Below, piece after piece: positions 5,115-60,600 of a DNA stretch of 64,000 nt; position 1 is the first letter of the stretch, and every line of letters begins with the position of its first letter. The position numbers were made by a program, and so were the translations under genes. A model generated the notes under the pieces. That model was given only the letters and a program-made list of their open reading frames with translations, did not search any database and was not told the origin of the DNA. The stretch spans positions 78,501 to 142,500 of the forward strand of contig WPIO01000053.1 of NCBI GenBank assembly GCA_009760855.2, written 5' to 3'. This DNA comes from Cristatella mucedo. Taxonomy: Eukaryota > Bryozoa > Phylactolaemata > Cristatellidae.

Positions 5115-5735
5115 AATAATGGTATTGGTAATAATAAATAGCACCCTCAGAGAATTGCATCTCTCTAGGCACTTTAAGAATTCTACATAGAAAGCATTAC
5201 CAAATCTTTGGTGGTAAAGTAAAAAAAGCCGGTACAGCATAAGAAGGTATGTGCACACTAAGGACAGATCACAAAGACCCGATACATGCTGTAATAAAAT
5301 GGTGTGTTTTAAGATTCTTTTTCGTCACTTGACAATGTCGGGTGACATTGTAAAGTGTGTCGGCAGTGAGATCCAGGCTTTGAGATTATACGTACAAAAG
5401 GCACGGTTTTCAATGGTTTTGACGATCATGTTAAGGGGAAGGATTGGAGCGAGAGCTGAGGAATTTATGATTTTTCCCCTGGTGTGGGAGTAGTTCCGAT
5501 AGGTTAGCTGGAGTCGGCGAGACGTGGTTGATGTGGCGATTGCTACGTTTATGACAGACGAGCCTAACTGCAGAGTTTTGCACCAAGTGTAAGTACCTGA
5601 CTGCACAGGCAGCGTACAAGTCAAAGATTAGATTGTATTTGCATGGGGATTGCATCGGCAAGATGGGAATATAAGTTGCAAAAAGAAGCAGACCGAGGTA
5701 TGAGCCATGAGGTACCTCATACTTAAGTCGTTCCA
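5115..5735 (-). mobile_element. Diverged LINE-B relative, 3' part
   Basis: On the minus strand the frame at 5431-5736 starts with a P-H-G-S-Y-L-G-L-L-L-F phrase, the degraded PQGSVLGPLLF motif of reverse transcriptase. It then jumps to A-V-R-L-V-C-H-K-R, the usual C-terminal A-A-R-L-V region, so an internal deletion is likely. The 3' end (5120-5190) keeps a decayed form of the LINE-B hairpin and an ATT-rich tail. A block including CCAAATCTTTGGTGG is shared with 42825-42945. Confidence 0.6.
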
Positions 5736-14376: not shown

Positions 14377-15303
14377 CATCGCCGACGCCCAGTTGTTGGA
14401 CAGCCTCTTAAATTCCGCCTACTAAACGTCCGCTTGCTAAAAACCAAGGGGTTACTTATCCACGATAAATTGGTCCAGGAGAAGCTAGATGCCTTTCTGC
14501 TTACCGAAACCTGAATGACGCCTTGCTCCAGTAGCTGTATTTCCGAGACCACCCCACCCGGGTTCTCATTCTAACAGTCCATGCGTTTTGGCAAGGTCGG
14601 TGGCGGGGTTGCAATTGTAGTTCGCGAATCGTTTGGCTATACAATGTGCAGTTTCTCGCATGGGTCATCGTTTGGATCGGTTGCTATCAGGTCTTCATCA
14701 AAGAAAATGCCTCTCACCGTTATGATATACCAGCCTCCTTCTGGCTGTCTAAACTTGTTTATAGAGGAGTTTTCAGAGTTCCTCGCTAAAATATTTGTGT
14801 GTGGCAGGCCGTTACTGATTGTAGGAGGTATCGATATTCACGTTGACAACCCTAGCAACAGCCAGGTCTGCTCATTTCTTGACTATCTGGAGAATTTTGG
14901 TTTGGCTCAACACGTTAATCATAGGACCCACGTCGACGGCTACGTTCTAGATCTCGTGATCACTAAGGATGTCCTCCCTACTGACTTTGTGGTGTGCCCA
15001 TTGACCCTCTCAGATCATTGTTCGGTCTCGTTTACTGTTCCTGCTCCCTCGTACGTACAGGGCAATGTCGAATTTGCCAAACGACGTAACTTACAAAGTA
15101 TTGACACGGACAAGTTTTTGAAATCTGTTTGTGATGCAGGTCTTCTTGATCTGCATTCAGACTTGACCGGCAGCCTCGATACCCTCACTGATGCAATGAA
15201 CATGACACTCAGGAGTGCACTTGACAAGCATGCTTCCGTCTGCTCTATCCGCGTTCAAAGTCGGCGAGATTCCTTTAAATTTACAAAAAACCTCTTAAAA
15301 TAA
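14377..15303 (+). pseudogene. LINE-A AP endonuclease domain
   Basis: Starts with L-L-N-V-R-L-L-K-T-K and reaches L-L-T-E-T (about 14510), the motif holding the catalytic glutamate; a stop follows at once. The frame from 14581 continues with GGGVAIVVRES, a V-M-I-Y-Q-P-P strand, L-L-I-V-G-G-I-D-I-H-V-D (the GDFN motif altered to GID) and the C-terminal S-D-H-C-S-V catalytic histidine motif near 15015. The enzyme nicks target DNA to prime reverse transcription. The changed GDFN motif and stops predict no activity. Confidence 0.8.
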
Positions 15304-15503
15304 GCCGGGTTAAGCCCAGACTAGAACGTCGTTTCAAGAAATCGGGGTCTGAGGCAGATCTCGTCAATTTTAAAGACTTCCTTCGAGTTAACACCCGAAA
15401 GCTTAAAAACACCAGGGCTTCTTTTTCCATTAGAAAGCTGAATTCCTGCCAGTCGGACACTAAACAGATTTATAAGACAGTAAACCATCTACTGGCCTAT
15501 GCT

Positions 15504-16694
15504 GTGAGGTCTGACTCCCCAGATATTAAGGGCTCAGCCGAAAAGTTTTCAGCCTTCTTTACTGAAAAAATTGTGCACATTCGTGCCTCCATTAAGCCCC
15601 ATCCGACCAAAGCAATCGCCTCTCCTCAACGTGCGACCTTTCCTAATACGTTCTCCGATGTTTCTGCCCATGATGTGACTGCCTTAATAAGGTCTAGAAA
15701 AAAGAGCTCGTCTCATGAAGATCCCATACCTTCATCTCTGTGGTCCTTTACTAGCAGATCAACTTAGCCCTGCCATAACCGAGATGTTTAATGCTTCTTT
15801 GAGAAAAGGGGTCGTCCCCAAGTCTTTCAAATCGGCAATTGTCAGACCTATTCTTAAAAAGCCTGGATTAGACACAAAGGTCCTACTAAACTATCGTCCA
15901 GTTTCCTTCTTCCGTTCTTATCAAAGATTCTTGAAAATATTGTTGCTGAGCAGCTAGTTGAACGCATTGAAAATAATGGAATGTCAGAAATATTTCAATC
16001 AGGGTTCAAGAGGCAGCACTCTACTGAAACTGCTCTCCTCCGTGTTAACAATGACATTCTACGTGGTAACGACGACGGGAATGTCAATGCCCAAGCTCTG
16101 CTAGATTTGTCTGCTGCCATCAACACCATTGATCACGAAGTTCTGCCTGAACGATTGAGAACAACGATGGGTCTGGCAGACGAAACACTGGCGTGGTTTA
16201 AATCATACGTGTCTGATCTCGTTCAATCCGTGTCTTGTGGGGGTCAGGTCTCAGACATGAGAAGGGTCACCTGTGTAGTCCCTCAAGGGTCTGTACTCGG
16301 TCCCTTGCTGTTCTCCATTTATTCACTACCTCTGGGAAAAGTGATTAAGGGCCATGGAATAGGATATCACTTATATGCTGACGATACTCAGTTGTATTTG
16401 TCATTTAAACCATTGGAATCTGCTGCAGCAATTGATAAACTGAATGCTTGCCTTGCCGATATTCGATCCCGGATGTCGGAAAACTTCCTGAAATTGAATG
16501 ACGATAAAACTGAACTGCTGCTCATAGGACACCCAAAGCGTGTGGCTGGATTAAAAGGCTTTGCTGCTCTAATAGGTGATGCAATTGTGCGACTTTCACC
16601 ACGTGCTCGTAATTTAGGTGTCGTGTTCGACAACTGCCTCAATTTCAAAAGCTTCATTCAGAAGACTGCCTCTACAGCTAGCGATCACATCTAA
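15504..16694 (+). pseudogene. LINE-A reverse transcriptase domain
   Basis: Spread over three frames. From 15504 the thumb-side linker contains A-L-I-R-S-R-K-K-S-S. From 15715 there is F-K-S-A-I-V-R-P-I-L-K-K-P-G and N-Y-R-P-V-S, then a frameshift near 15905. From 15981 come Q-S-G-F-K-R-Q-H-S-T-E-T-A, P-Q-G-S-V-L-G-P-L-L-F (about 16280) and Y-H-L-Y-A-D-D-T-Q-L (about 16370), with both catalytic aspartates intact. It copies the element's RNA at the nicked target. The frame closes at 16694. Confidence 0.85.
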
Positions 16695-16699
16695 TCCCT

Positions 16700-17231
16700 A
16701 TCCAAGAGTAGGAGCTGTCTCCCACAGTGGCCTGTAAAAAATTGAACTAGCTCTTTAGTTCTGTCTCGGCTTGATTATTGTAATTCCCTTTTGGCTGGGC
16801 TGCCAAAGAAAGCTATTATGCCACTATAGCGGACTATGAATATGGCTGCAAGGCTAGTCTTCAAGTCACAGCGGCTTTCACACGTATCTACTTTGCTGAA
16901 AGAGCTAGGATGGTTGCCAGTTGAGCAAAGGATACAGATCGAAGTTATTACGCCGACCCACAAGGCCCGCCACGGCTTGGTTCCTTTATACCTAGCTGAA
17001 CTGCTGCATCAGTTTCAGCCTGTTTGCGCCCTCAGGTCCTGTGTGGACAATAAATTAGCTGTCCCATTCCTCCACTTAAAGACAGTTGGCGACAGAAGCT
17101 TTAGCCCAGCAGTTCCTAGGCTGTGGATCTTGCTTCCACAATTTATAAACAACAAAAACTACTCTCCTGCTGCCGATTATGGCTCATCTTTTCTAGCGGT
17201 CCTGAGCTGCTACTTCCATGCTACTCACTAA
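16700..17231 (+). pseudogene. LINE-A C-terminal region
   Basis: After several stops the frame from 16836 gives N-M-A-A-R-L-V-F-K, W-L-P-V-E-Q-R-I-Q, Y-L-A-E-L-L-H-Q-F-Q-P, then G-D-R-S-F and the R-L-W-x-L-L-P-Q-F block, the conserved C terminus of CR1/L2-type polyproteins. This part is the most repeated piece of LINE-A in the window because copies are 5'-truncated. Confidence 0.8.
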
Positions 17232-41115: not shown

Positions 41116-52573
<11,458 letters not shown>

Positions 52574-54847: not shown

Positions 54848-57535
54848 TACACACACTTATACAGATTATTCATTTGTATAGCTCCCAAAGGGAACTACTT
54901 CTCTACCGAGGAGTTAAACACATGCCACAAGAGCTCGAACCCATGACCTTGGTCGTCAAAGGCGAGTGCCTTATGCCTGTTGGCCTGTGCCAAACTGTGT
55001 GGCAGCTGTGCCTTGCTCTGTCCACGTGTTCTCGTTGCGTTTGCTCATTGCCCCATTGCTCATTGCCCCATTGCTCATTGCTCAGTGCCCCGTTCAGCAC
55101 TGCCGTGTGGCTGGAATAGTCCACACGAAGACGCATGAGTACTGGCATTCGTGCGACCATTTTTAACTTGCTTACTATTTTTATTGACAGACCTAAGCCG
55201 GCTGGGTCATCGGCTGCTCCTGCTAGGATAGGCTTTCATCTGGATGCATTATTTAAGGTGCAGCCAGCGGCCCTCGATCGGTCCTCCGATTAAGAAAACG
55301 ATTTTGCACCCGGGTGCTCAGCCGTGGTAAGACGAGTCGTAATTTAAGAAAGCATCTTTCAGCAAGGGTCCACTTAATGCTATGCTAGTTAGCTAAGGTC
55401 CTGTAGCTGTACAGAGATCGTGGCTGTCACTGTGCCAACTAAGGGCGATTTTAAGCGATGCCCAAATCGGTTCGGCTGCTGTTAAAACATCGTCGGTCAA
55501 TCTCGACGTCCCGAATGCACGAACCGGTCGCCAGGTTGCATCGCGAGGTTGCACCGTCCCGATTGGTGCTGCACAGCCACCCCCCCCCCCCCGCTTGCAG
55601 TGTGAGCTTGGGGCAGGCAATGGAGGCAGCACAGCCTCCTTTCAATAAGATTATGCAAGCCTTGAGTCACGAGTAATGCCTCGGCTTCAAGAGGATTTCA
55701 AATGAATTTGCTAAGTTCCCGACGCCAATGCTGCTGCTGCTAGATGGCTAGTCGTTTTTTTGCAAGCGATTGCATGTCGAAGGCTTCTCTTTCATCGTCG
55801 CGCAGATTGTCGCACTGAAGTTCATCTCAAAGGTTGGCCGCTCCGAGAAGGAGCTGCGAGGACTGCGCCGCGAGATCGACATAATGAGGGGCCTGCAGCA
55901 TCCAAACATCGTGCAAATGCTCGACAGCTTCGAGACGGAGAAAGAGGTATTGGTCAAGCAGCTAGTAGCTAGTTCCAGAAGTTTCATCGTATTGCCAGTC
56001 CAGATTATTACCATACGTTAATGCGACTGCTTTTCTGGCTGTCAGAAGCTCTGCGTGGTACATTATGGACATGCTGTGTTGACAGTTTATTTCGTTGGGA
56101 AGAAAACTTTCTCGCTAATCGAAAGCTATATGATGCGTTCCTGCCTACCACCTGTCCAGCATACTAAATGTTACCTGAAAAAAGTTATCCTCTGCAAGGC
56201 GATGCTGTTTACCACCTAGTCTTGATCCCTGTAGCAGCTTCCGGTGAATTCACTAGCTTGGCCGAGCCGACCTTCCTGTCCCCGAGTACGGTCATCTTAA
56301 GCAGGTGGTTTTTGTGGCTCGATGTCTGGTTCTGGCACCCTGGGCAGCCGCTTTTGGCCTCGGAGCTCTTCTTAGTGTAGGCATCCAGACTCTACCTGAC
56401 ACAACCTTACCTCATGCAAAGTGCACGATTGATCTCGCTTTTGCTCCAGTCTTTTTGTGAAGGACTAGCAGAATGTCATTAGAGAAGTCGCTTTGCACCG
56501 TTTCCTCTAGCATGCTTTAGTGTAACTAGTTCCTTCCTGTAATTGACCGGAAAGGGGAGCTAAACCTTGACCTTGACCCAGACCTAGAGCAACCTAGAAA
56601 GCCACGAAGCATCTCGAATACTCTCTTGCACTGACAAAACTTCCGTGGTAATACTCTTCGAAGCCAGATTCTGAAAGTACTACCGATATTTAAGAAAACG
56701 GAAGGTTTATGCCAAGTTGGTTTGCTCCAGCAGTTAAGGTGCTTGCCCCGACCAAGGTCTGGCTGAGATCGTAGGCTCGAGCCCTGTGGCATATTTGAAG
56801 TGCTTGAATAGAGATTAATTTCTCTTGTAGTGCCATACAAATGAGTTATATTTTTTAAGCTCAGAGATTTATTAAAACAATTTCCATTCACGTACATCAC
56901 CATAACCGTGCTTATGTGTGTGCCCACATTGTGTGATCCATCATTTCCTTTGCCAATGAGGTCACTCCTGAGCCACCGAGCTGCTTGGAACCCCAATAAA
57001 TTAGGCCTGTGGCCTAATTCGGGAAGGTTAAATACGGGATTGAGATGCTGGACTAAGCATTGCCGGATACAAGGCTTCGATCCCTGATCGTTGCCTGCAT
57101 GTTGACTCATTAGGACTAGGTTCTCCCAGCATTCAAGCTTCTAGCTCTTCAGTTTGTTTATATAAACCTTAAATCCTTTGGAGACCGTGCATTTAGCTCG
57201 TATGCTCCCACAGCCTGGAACTCCCTCCCGACCTGCATCAGAACATCCCCTGACCTGACCACATTTAAAAGAAACTTAAAAACATACCTATTTAGGACAG
57301 CATTTAGTGGGTCCTTGTGATTCGTCCTCGATGTGCTTATGCGTGCTGACACTGTTCATGCTGCCACTAACCACATTTGCATGCTGACCCAGTGCATGTA
57401 ACCCCTAACCATGTTATTCATTTTGTTTGTTTTTCAAGCATGATTTTACTTACTATTCTATTGCGTATCACTTTGCAGCAAATGTAAAGCGCCTAGAAAG
57501 AGATTGAGTTCTCTGAGGGCGCTTTATCAAGTGCA

Positions 57536-57575
<40 letters not shown>

Positions 57576-57576
57576 G

Positions 57577-57627
<51 letters not shown>

Positions 57628-60600
57628 ATAATCTGCCGTATAGTCTGCCATAGTCCATACAGGGATTTAAGTTTGTTCGATTGCTGATTTCTTGTTTGCA
57701 GCTGCATTGACCTTTTTTGCATTATCAAATTGCTCACTGCTACAGGTGGTTGCAGTCACAGATTTTGCTGAGGGGGAACTCTTCCAGATATTAGAGGACG
57801 ACGGCAGTCTGCCGGAGGATCAGGTGAGCGCCCGTGCAGCGGATGTTGAGTCGAGGTCAAGGTTTCTGCCGCCATACACCACATGGTGGAAGAGCATGCA
57901 GCTGTGCTCCCCGGTGTGGTGCCCTCTGCCATGACTGCCACGCCTTCTCCTTCCTGAACCTACTCTATTGCCCACCTCAGCATTAAGGTCCTGCTGTTGC
58001 AGTTGCCATGTGTAATTGCAATGGTTGTAGTTACTGGGTCCTAGTAGCCACTTACTTTGCAAAGTGACACAGTCTGCATTCGTCAAACGTGCGAAATCTT
58101 GCCTCCCTGTCGACGGATCTCGCCGTGCTGCGTGCTGCTTGCAGGTGCGCTGCATTGCCGCGCAGCTCGTCTCCTCCCTCTACTACCTGCACGCTCACCG
58201 CATTCTGCACCGAGACATGAAGCCACAGAACATCCTGCTCGGCAAAGGCGGCGTCGTGAAGCTGTGCGACTTTGGCTTCGCTCGCGCCATGAGCATGAAC
58301 ACTCTGGTGCTCACGTCCATCAAGGTGAGGAAGAAGAGCCGTGCCGATGTGTGCTGCTGCAGTGGTGGCACAGGTAGCATTTAGGGGGGCAGTAAATCCG
58401 CTTTAGCCTCACTTTTACAGTGATCCAATCCCTGAAGAGCTGTGCCGATGTGTGCTGCTGCAGTGGTGGCACAGGGTAGCATTTAGGGGGGCAGTAAATC
58501 CGTTTTAGCCTCACTTTTACAGTGATCCAATCCCTGAAGAGCTGTGCCGATGTGTGCTGCTGCAGTGGTGGCACAGGGTAGCATTTAGGGGGGGGCAGTA
58601 AATCCGCTTTAGCCTCACTTTTACAGTGATCCAATCCCTGAAGAGCTGTGTCGATGTGTGCTGCTGCAGTGGTGGCACAGGGTAGCATTTAGGGGGGGCA
58701 GTAAATCCGCTTTAGCCTCACTTTTACAGTGATCCAATCCCTGAAGGCAACTGAAGCCCATTCCATCCCCGTTGCATATGGTGCTCTTTTTTTTTTAGCA
58801 ATCACTAGCAGATTTTAGCCTCACGATGCTGAGAAATTAACTTTTCTTTCGTATGTATCACCTCATCTGTCGTTGATTGACTTTCAGGGTACTCCTCTGT
58901 ACATGTCCCCTGAACTAGTGGAAGAGAAGCCATACGATCACACAGCCGACCTGTGGTAAGTTACCTTACCTTGAGCAAGCCGCCTACGTACGCCCGCTGC
59001 TGATGCCGCTACAGTGTCATGTTGCAGTTGAACTTCTCGATAGTTTTGCTTCAACAGTCGAGTGTCACTGTTTTTTGTTCACTGTTTGTCGCTGTTTTTT
59101 GGTACTAAGTTACCAGTCTCTTTAAGTACGGGGCTTTTTTGCCTGTTCCATTGATGGGCTGCACTACCTGTGGGGCAGCATGGCAGCAAACCTTCTCATC
59201 TTAAAGGGTGATATAAAACTTAAAGTTTTGATTTAACATTTTGATCATTTTATGGGTCAAACATTGTTTTACTTTACTTTTTGTTATTTATTCTCTCAGA
59301 AATATGATATAAATATGATAGCTTAACCCTTCAAATGTGCTCGGGCCATTTTTGCAGACCAAAGTGACCTCTCACTAGATGACCATTTCAGCTCCTCAGT
59401 CAAGTCTGCCTTCTTTTGGGAAGATCACACTGCAAATTATGGTGCTTGGTTAGATAAAGATGCCATAGTCAAGCCTGTCTGTGCATTTGTGACATTCCAG
59501 CTAGACTTCTGGAACTCACCGGTTGCAGCTGTTCTTGCCTGTGCAGCAAGAAATTTACTGTTGGTTGGCAACTCATCAGTGTGTCTAGTCTGTCGCCAAC
59601 TTAGCAATTGCCACATGACACCACTTCTGACTAATCGGCACTGGCTCCTCATTAAGCAGTGTGTCAACTTCAAGGTTCTGTCACTCATGTTTAGCAGCCT
59701 TCATTTCCACGTGCCGCTCTACTTATCTTAGGGACTCGCTTTTCAGGCTTGTAATTGTGACACCTGTTGTTCTGACTTGTGTCGTTTGGCTGTGCCAGTT
59801 ATAAACACGAAATCCTTCAATACTGTGCTCTCTGTCAGTATGCTCCCTAAGCCTGGAGCTCACTACTGTCTAAACACCGTGTAACACAATGTCTTCTCTT
59901 GATTCGACGACATTAACAAAGAAACTGAATACGTACCTGTTCCTCACAGCTTGTCTTTTGTCCACGTGAATAGTCTTTTATGTGCACTTTAGTGCTGAAA
60001 TTGTGCAAAATAGAAAGAGCCAATTGGCTGGCTTTCTTTTCAGCATATATAGATTGCCCCAAAAAGAGATTTGGGTTCTCTTCGGGCAATATATAAATAC
60101 TTTTATTTGAGTTATAATTATGATTGTAGTGAGTGCTGAATACTTTCTTCGCGACTTCAGATTCCACGCCAGCTTTGCCGCAGCATGCTCTGCTTCTGCT
60201 TTGCTGACCGCTGCAGGGCACTGGGCTGTATCCTGTACGAGCTGAACATTGGGCAGCCGCCATTCTACACCAACAGCATCTTCCAGCTGGTTAGCCTCAT
60301 AGTGAAAGATCCCGTGAAATGGCCCAAGAGCATGTCGCCAGCATTCAAAGACTTCCTCCAAGGGCTGCTGACCAAGGACCCCGGTGCTAGGCTCAGCTGG
60401 CCTGACTTGCTCCTGCATCCATTCGTCGCCGACCTCGTGACCGGTAGAGTGGCCTGACAGGTCGCGCTTGCCTGCTCGAGACTGGCCACGCCCTTGAGCT
60501 CGACCTGCAGCCGAGGCAGTCAGTGCTTCGGCGAGGGGGGGGACGGCGGTGTGGCTAGTCGCGCTTGATTCGATGCAGGCAGACGCCTAGCATTTCGAGT

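Follow-up and report, generated by a model that had tools for sequence, protein, structure and literature searches.

In this work we have examined a stretch of DNA of 64 kb, referred to below as the window and belonging to a eukaryotic assembly of 572 Mb in 688 contigs, with particular attention to a hairpin at 60053-60090 which lies at the 3' end of a decayed LINE. This LINE, here called LD, is intronic: exons of a serine/threonine kinase gene, which we take to resemble STK36/fused, are found at 58150-58956 and 60217-60456. About four near-identical tandem copies of a unit of ~116 bp were also noticed by eye inside the kinase gene, at about 58330-58750. Tails with the layout of the LD hairpin occur elsewhere in the window, on LINEs as well as on a tRNA-type SINE, and they are listed here with their strand and, in bits, their score against the covariance model described below.

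60053-60090, plus strand: 3' hairpin of the divergent LINE LD, outer arms at 60053-60059 and 60084-60090, inner stem by sequence reading at 60065-60069 and 60077-60081; predicted fold of -16.8 kcal/mol, z -3.1; model match at 60042-60103, 59.6 bits, itself a training row
59330-60115, plus strand: decayed, 5'-truncated LINE LD with a C-terminal remnant of ORF2, recognised by ORF2 homology
57161-57536, plus strand: LINE-B 3' end with its hairpin at 57486-57525, recognised by blastn to other copies in the window; ORF2 C-terminus at 57144-57317; 82.7 bits, fold z -6.0
43128-43187, plus strand: LINE-B tail with the loop UUAAGU, as in the SINE; 82.5 bits
49652-49711, minus strand: LINE-B tail; 77 bits
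13872-13931, minus strand: LINE-B tail; 73.8 bits
28555-28614, plus strand: LINE-B tail; 67.6 bits
33065-33124, plus strand: LINE-B tail; 76.1 bits
63339-63398, plus strand: LINE-B-like tail (group LE); 76.3 bits
35057-35116, minus strand: LINE-B-like tail (group LE); 71.9 bits
29857-29916, plus strand: LINE-B-like tail (group LE); 67.6 bits
44950-45069, plus strand: tRNA-type SINE, box-B-like motif at 44995-45005 and LINE-type tail at 45010-45069; 71.5 bits
2324-2437, minus strand: SINE copy, 87.7% by blastn; tail 69.9 bits
56728-56847, plus strand: SINE copy, 84.6% by blastn; tail 58.9 bits
63121-63240, minus strand: SINE copy, 83.5% by blastn; tail 72 bits
54867-54926, minus strand: decayed SINE tail with box-B-like context upstream; 32.7 bits
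62066-62129, plus strand: decayed SINE-type tail with a 4-base insertion, 77.3% by blastn; 35.1 bits
5129-5184, minus strand: tail of an old LINE group, LC, with ORF2 C-terminal homology upstream (35.1%, E 1.9e-10); 27.8 bits
42839-42896, minus strand: second LC tail, 82.5% by blastn to the copy at 5149; 42.6 bits

Read directly, the hairpin at 60053-60090 is ATTGCCC CAAAA AGAGA TTTGGGT TCTCT TC GGGCAAT, that of LINE-B at 57486-57525 is AAAGCGCC TAGAA AGAGA TTGAGT TCTCT GAG GGCGCTTT, and the SINE tail at 45021-45056 is AGCGCC TGAAT AGAGA TTAAGT TCTCT TGG GGTGCT, with one G.U wobble in its outer stem. All three agree letter for letter with the original prediction, and the reading also confirms its statements that LINE-B and the divergent LINE have the inner stem AGAGA/TCTCT in common and that the outer arms at 60053, ATTGCCC/GGGCAAT, differ from those of LINE-B and yet pair. 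The layout common to LINE-B, older LINE families and the tRNA-type SINE is this inner stem enclosed within an outer stem of 6-8 bp; in both LC tails the spacer before the inner stem is two bases shorter. The core AGAGATTNNNTTCTCT, with at most two mismatches, is matched 26 times in the window, a count in which two sites appear once for each strand, compared with a mean of 2.33 and a maximum of 8 after shuffling, and the pattern AAAGCGCC...GGCGCTTT has four where none is expected. The covariance model, trained on 28 tails (15 from the window and 13 from genome loci), found 28 tails in the window at E <= 0.0034. Among them are the SINE tails near 2330, 54870, 56790 and 63140, for which the same layout had been claimed; two extra matches at E <= 1, one of them doubtful and the other on the opposite strand of the 60053 hairpin, were left uncounted. 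Single-strand folding of eight tails gave z-scores of -2.9 to -6.0, the values against dinucleotide shuffles being -6.0 at 57477, -3.1 at 60042 and -2.9 at 45010. In 66 distinct sampled tails, 83.8% of the stem cells were paired in register, compared with 37-58% when slid by 1-3 columns. The tail hairpins are real and well beyond chance, as the shuffle counts, the model matches and the fold z-scores show.

The same tail is abundant in the genome. A sample of 250 kb, taken at regular intervals from four contigs and having no part in the building of the model, contained 67 tails at E <= 0.01; when it was searched as two parts, which makes the E-values smaller, 50 and 19 tails were obtained. Simple scaling would give about 150,000 tails genome-wide, a figure extrapolated from a small, non-random sample. 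The strict pattern GYGCC-N5-AGAGATTNAGTTCTCT-N3-GGCRC was matched exactly 24,307 times in the genome and its reversed control not once. Altogether 110 tails were gathered, 28 from the window, 69 from sampled loci and 13 from loci fetched by similarity search.

What kind of LINE carries these tails? LINE-B has a reverse transcriptase domain of the non-LTR type, as an L2-clade LINE should, the RVT_1 match being above the Pfam cut-off in one of two copies that contain part of this domain (L026, E 1.3e-12) and below it in the other (L027, E 1.2e-05). A homology search with the L027 frame returned 3,189 relatives, 120 of them listed; among those 120, all 12 that are named by organism are proteins of teleost fish with 46-48% identity, and the two nearest have 96% and 74% identity, each over 73% of the query. 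The Pfam search of the 60053 element gave no match, and its ORF2 kinship is seen in the C-terminal homology to LINE-B (48.9% amino acid identity over query residues 51-226, E 3.6e-42). Stop codons are present in all three frames of LD at 59330-60039, and its 3' end has eight further genomic matches with 76-81% identity. Homology to the LINE-B-type ORF2 C-terminus was found at most 900 bp upstream of 48 of the 110 tails, the 60053 element included. The 3' tails form a stem-loop with a lower and an upper stem, which is characteristic of the 'stringent' LINEs of the L2 clade, and most of the listed LINE-B tails are trailed by TAT/ATT repeats (judged by eye and uncounted), in agreement with the short 3'-terminal repeats of such elements. 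A second LINE with a reverse transcriptase domain, LINE-A, lies at 14575-17231 (RVT_1, 2.3e-21). By eye, the plus strand after this element has no such hairpin, so that not every LINE here has the tail; a PDB sequence search with the LINE-A reverse transcriptase (15858-16694) gave no match.

The SINE consensus, derived from ten copies, has in its head two motifs that resemble the internal promoter boxes of RNA polymerase III, TGGTCCAGCGG for box A and GGCTCGAGCCC for box B, and continues into the LINE-type tail. ARAGORN called no tRNA gene in the window, and its calls at a lowered threshold vary between SINE copies. A fuzzy box-B motif assigned 18 of the 110 tails to the SINE, probably wrongly in the case of L006:138. 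The original prediction had considered that the SINE tail might turn out to be unrelated to the LINE consensus, but the two are homologous: 49 bp are shared at 79.6% (blastn) between the SINE and LINE-B at 57478-57526, a LINE tail of the same genome. From which LINE could the SINE have taken its tail? We compared the SINE consensus over 56 columns, four CpG columns being left out. It differs from the LINE-B consensus in 17 of the 56 columns and from the nearest single LINE-B copy in 15, whereas the nearest of 70 non-SINE tails of 60 nt, L005:1505, differs in ten and the next nearest, L013:900, L002:1541 and L004:1522, in 12 each; L005, L002 and L004 are loci retrieved for their resemblance to the 60053 tail, and L013 comes from the unselected sample. 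The motifs GCATATG, CTCTT and CTATAYAAATG are common to the SINE and the older tails, where LINE-B instead has GCAAATG, CTCTG and CTTTATCAAGTG. Since the SINE tail is nearer to LD-like tails (10, 12) than to LINE-B (17), an older, LD-like LINE appears to be the likelier source. Mobilisation of the SINE by LINE-B today is possible, because the loop UUAAGU of the SINE is also present in some LINE-B copies. The model matches, the ORF2 homology and the comparison of tails bear out that LINE-B, its divergent homologue and the tRNA-type SINE end in a common hairpin, in the manner of known LINE-SINE pairs, whereas the proposal that LINE-B moves the SINE is weakened (17 columns as against 10).

Changes in the outer stem had been predicted to be compensatory and selected, and covariation was suggested as the check. 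Run as column shuffles, this check gave no significant excess. In the first alignment, whose 28 rows include 15 from the window and others from loci of which some were picked by similarity to the 60053 tail, the covariation score was 0.148 against 0.131 +/- 0.011, with 45 of 500 shuffles as high; for the number of cells paired, 53 of 500 were as high. For the 66 distinct tails among the 67 sampled, the score was 0.154, with 0.148 +/- 0.008 after shuffling, and two-sided changes affected 6 pairs against 4.9 and 16 cells against 12.3 (119, 159 and 70 of 500 shuffles as high, respectively). No measure on these unselected tails can be told apart from the column shuffles, the other counts being 94 and 144 of 500. 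Fisher tests on 70 tails of 60 nt gave p = 0.13 for pair 14-45 and p = 0.30 for pair 15-44. It should be borne in mind that copies decay freely after insertion, and the lack of covariation is therefore no argument against an RNA structure; the null result removes one line of evidence for selection, and nothing more.

Could selection nevertheless have made compensatory changes between the tail families, with LINE-B moving the SINE? We consider this improbable. It is true that ATTGCCC and GGGCAAT pair in the 60053 copy, that the first 28 rows reached 45 and 53 of 500, and that some LINE-B copies have the loop of the SINE. However, the SINE is closer to the nearest LD-type copy than to LINE-B, and the covariation of the sampled tails cannot be distinguished from that of shuffles. 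Moreover, the outer stem AGCGCC/GGCGCT has one CpG in each arm and its variation lies mostly at these two CpGs. When C changes to T in one arm and G to A in the other, both by CpG decay, a C-G pair becomes U-A, so that CpG decay and unequal age of the copies would produce U-A doubles without selection. Such doubles do occur in the genome and may be counted in favour of compensation: GTGCC/GGCAC has 639 exact matches, two further combinations of GTGCC or GCGCC with GGCGC, GGCAC or GGTGC have 2,984 and 1,924, and among 100 matches listed of the 24,307 there are 88 C-G, six C/A, four U/G and two U-A. Outer stems that are fully Watson-Crick were found in 23 of 83 tails of 60 nt (17 AGCGCC/GGCGCT, 4 AGTGCC/GGCACT and 2 AGCACC/GGTGCT), and all 23 are CpG-transition versions of one stem. 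The 60053 copy, which is 62 nt long in the model alignment, falls outside this set. Its arms differ from the LD-type AGTGCC/GGCACT by one change in each, at partner positions (G-C to U-A); in simulations with one change per arm, full Watson-Crick pairing was kept in 5.5% of cases, about 1 in 18, or in 10% with G.U, and this swap had been singled out post hoc from 28 tails.

The strand symmetry of CpG decay was tested on 108 of the 110 tails, with families assigned by fuzzy upstream motifs. In the 5' arm the ratio of TG to CA was 11:0 in LD, 23:7 in other L2-like tails, 1:5 in LINE-B and 4:2 in the SINE, and in the 3' arm the ratio of CA to TG was 3:3, 10:13, 5:3 and 2:6 in the same order; the groups are small, and five of the 11 LD rows belong to loci that had been retrieved because they resemble the 60053 tail. 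These ratios are suggestive only, pointing perhaps to U.G as the ancestral state of the first CpG pair in the older families, with LINE-B having changed to C-G on one side. The differences between outer stems are mostly CpG decay together with single-sided wobble changes, and do not demonstrate compensatory evolution. There is a caution in this for other systems: deamination in the CpG-rich stems of decaying repeats can alone mimic compensatory base pairs, and covariation should therefore be judged on family consensuses, away from CpGs.

What, then, is the function of the hairpin? We think it very probable that 'stringent' non-LTR retrotransposons of the L2 type have their 3' tails recognised through it, and that it does the same for a tRNA-type SINE which took its tail from such elements. 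The shared tail, the homologous ORF2, the abundance and the folding are the observed basis of this reading. By analogy with known systems, which also suggest the name of the L2 clade, the ORF2 protein of the LINE would bind the stem-loop of its own RNA or, mobilising it in trans, that of the SINE RNA. The short 3' repeats would then align to the nicked target and reverse transcription would begin (target-primed reverse transcription), the outcome being many 5'-truncated copies that bear the same tail. The outer stem would be preserved as a stem, and the inner stem and loop in their sequence. The SINE most likely acquired its tail from an older LINE similar to LD.

It may be, on the other hand, that the tails are alike through common descent or template switching only, with the hairpin irrelevant to recognition and a relaxed mechanism operating via the 3' ATT repeats. 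This accords with the repeats into which most of the listed LINE-B tails continue, with covariation among copies no higher than in shuffles and with the many old copies whose outer stem is broken (23 of 83 are fully Watson-Crick). Little can be read from broken stems, however, since decay is what one expects of dead copies. LINEs with ~49% identity between their ORF2 C-termini still have the same core, and the SINE and LINE-B share only their last ~49 bp, as a recognised tail predicts. In zebrafish, ZfL2-1 and ZfL2-2 need their stem-loop for retrotransposition, which its deletion abolished (PMC4176376). We find this alternative very improbable. That the tails are chance inverted repeats or a simple-sequence artefact can be dismissed for practical purposes: the surroundings of several copies are AT-rich and repeat-rich, but the shuffle expectations and the reversed-pattern control contradict this, as do the fold z-scores of the eight tails, and the tails sit directly after ORF2 remnants.

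If the hairpin is a recognition element, is its use confined to each family? Perhaps the several LINE lineages, with ORF2 identity of ~49%, and the SINE form one exchange pool in which any active member could move the others, although we regard this as speculative and rather unlikely. Cross-use would freeze the loop and the inner stem and let the outer stem drift freely as a stem. An exchange pool, if true, would supply naturally occurring LINE and SINE RNAs with which loop-specific recognition, as well as mobilisation across families, could be tested.

In layout and in the arrangement of host and parasite, the tails appear to fit the known L2 type of LINE and SINE, with a loop sequence of their own. 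Rfam holds a family of UnaL2-type tails; searched at the gathering score, the whole window gave no relevant match, and at E <= 10 the region 57400-57600 gave no match to UnaL2. The GGAUA loop of the UnaL2 type is absent from the LINE-B and SINE tails. As described in the cited papers, UnaL2 and UnaSINE1 of the eel, which belong to the L2 clade, share a tail that is recognised by the LINE protein (PMC2653535, PMC3747384, PMC4176376). There, as here, a LINE and a tRNA-type SINE share a 3' stem-loop that ends in short repeats, but the repeats are TGTAA and the loop GGAUA, whereas here we find TAT/ATT and, in LINE-B and the SINE, UURAGU; recognition by the LINE protein was shown for the eel pair. 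The 3' tails of ZfL2-1 and ZfL2-2 consist of a lower stem, an upper stem and a loop, the stem being swappable and the loop specific, and the tail-binding region of the zebrafish L2 LINEs lies between EN and RT (PMC4176376). Our tails have the same three parts, although the host and the families are others, and the loop is common to several families here whereas the loops of the two zebrafish elements differ. In carp, HAmo SINE and HAmoL2 have a hairpin tail of ~42 bp in common (PMC2653535). Like ours, this is a tRNA-derived SINE whose hairpin tail is nearly identical to that of an L2 LINE; its partners differ by one base, whereas here the nearest sampled LINE tail differs from the SINE in 10 of 56 non-CpG columns. 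The monocot L1 and SINE tails, with ~50 nt of related 3' ends which form a hairpin and for which compensatory mutations were reported (PMC3747384), resemble ours in that the LINE and SINE ends are related and hairpin-forming, but they belong to the L1 clade and to plants, and we see no significant compensation. Our search, which covered published papers, did not find this particular family described, and we make no claim that the family is undescribed. The tails would add an abundant further example to the L2 kind of tail sharing between LINEs and SINEs. Lastly, the window also contains a long GA/CT-rich microsatellite at 43835-44260, which is open in several frames.
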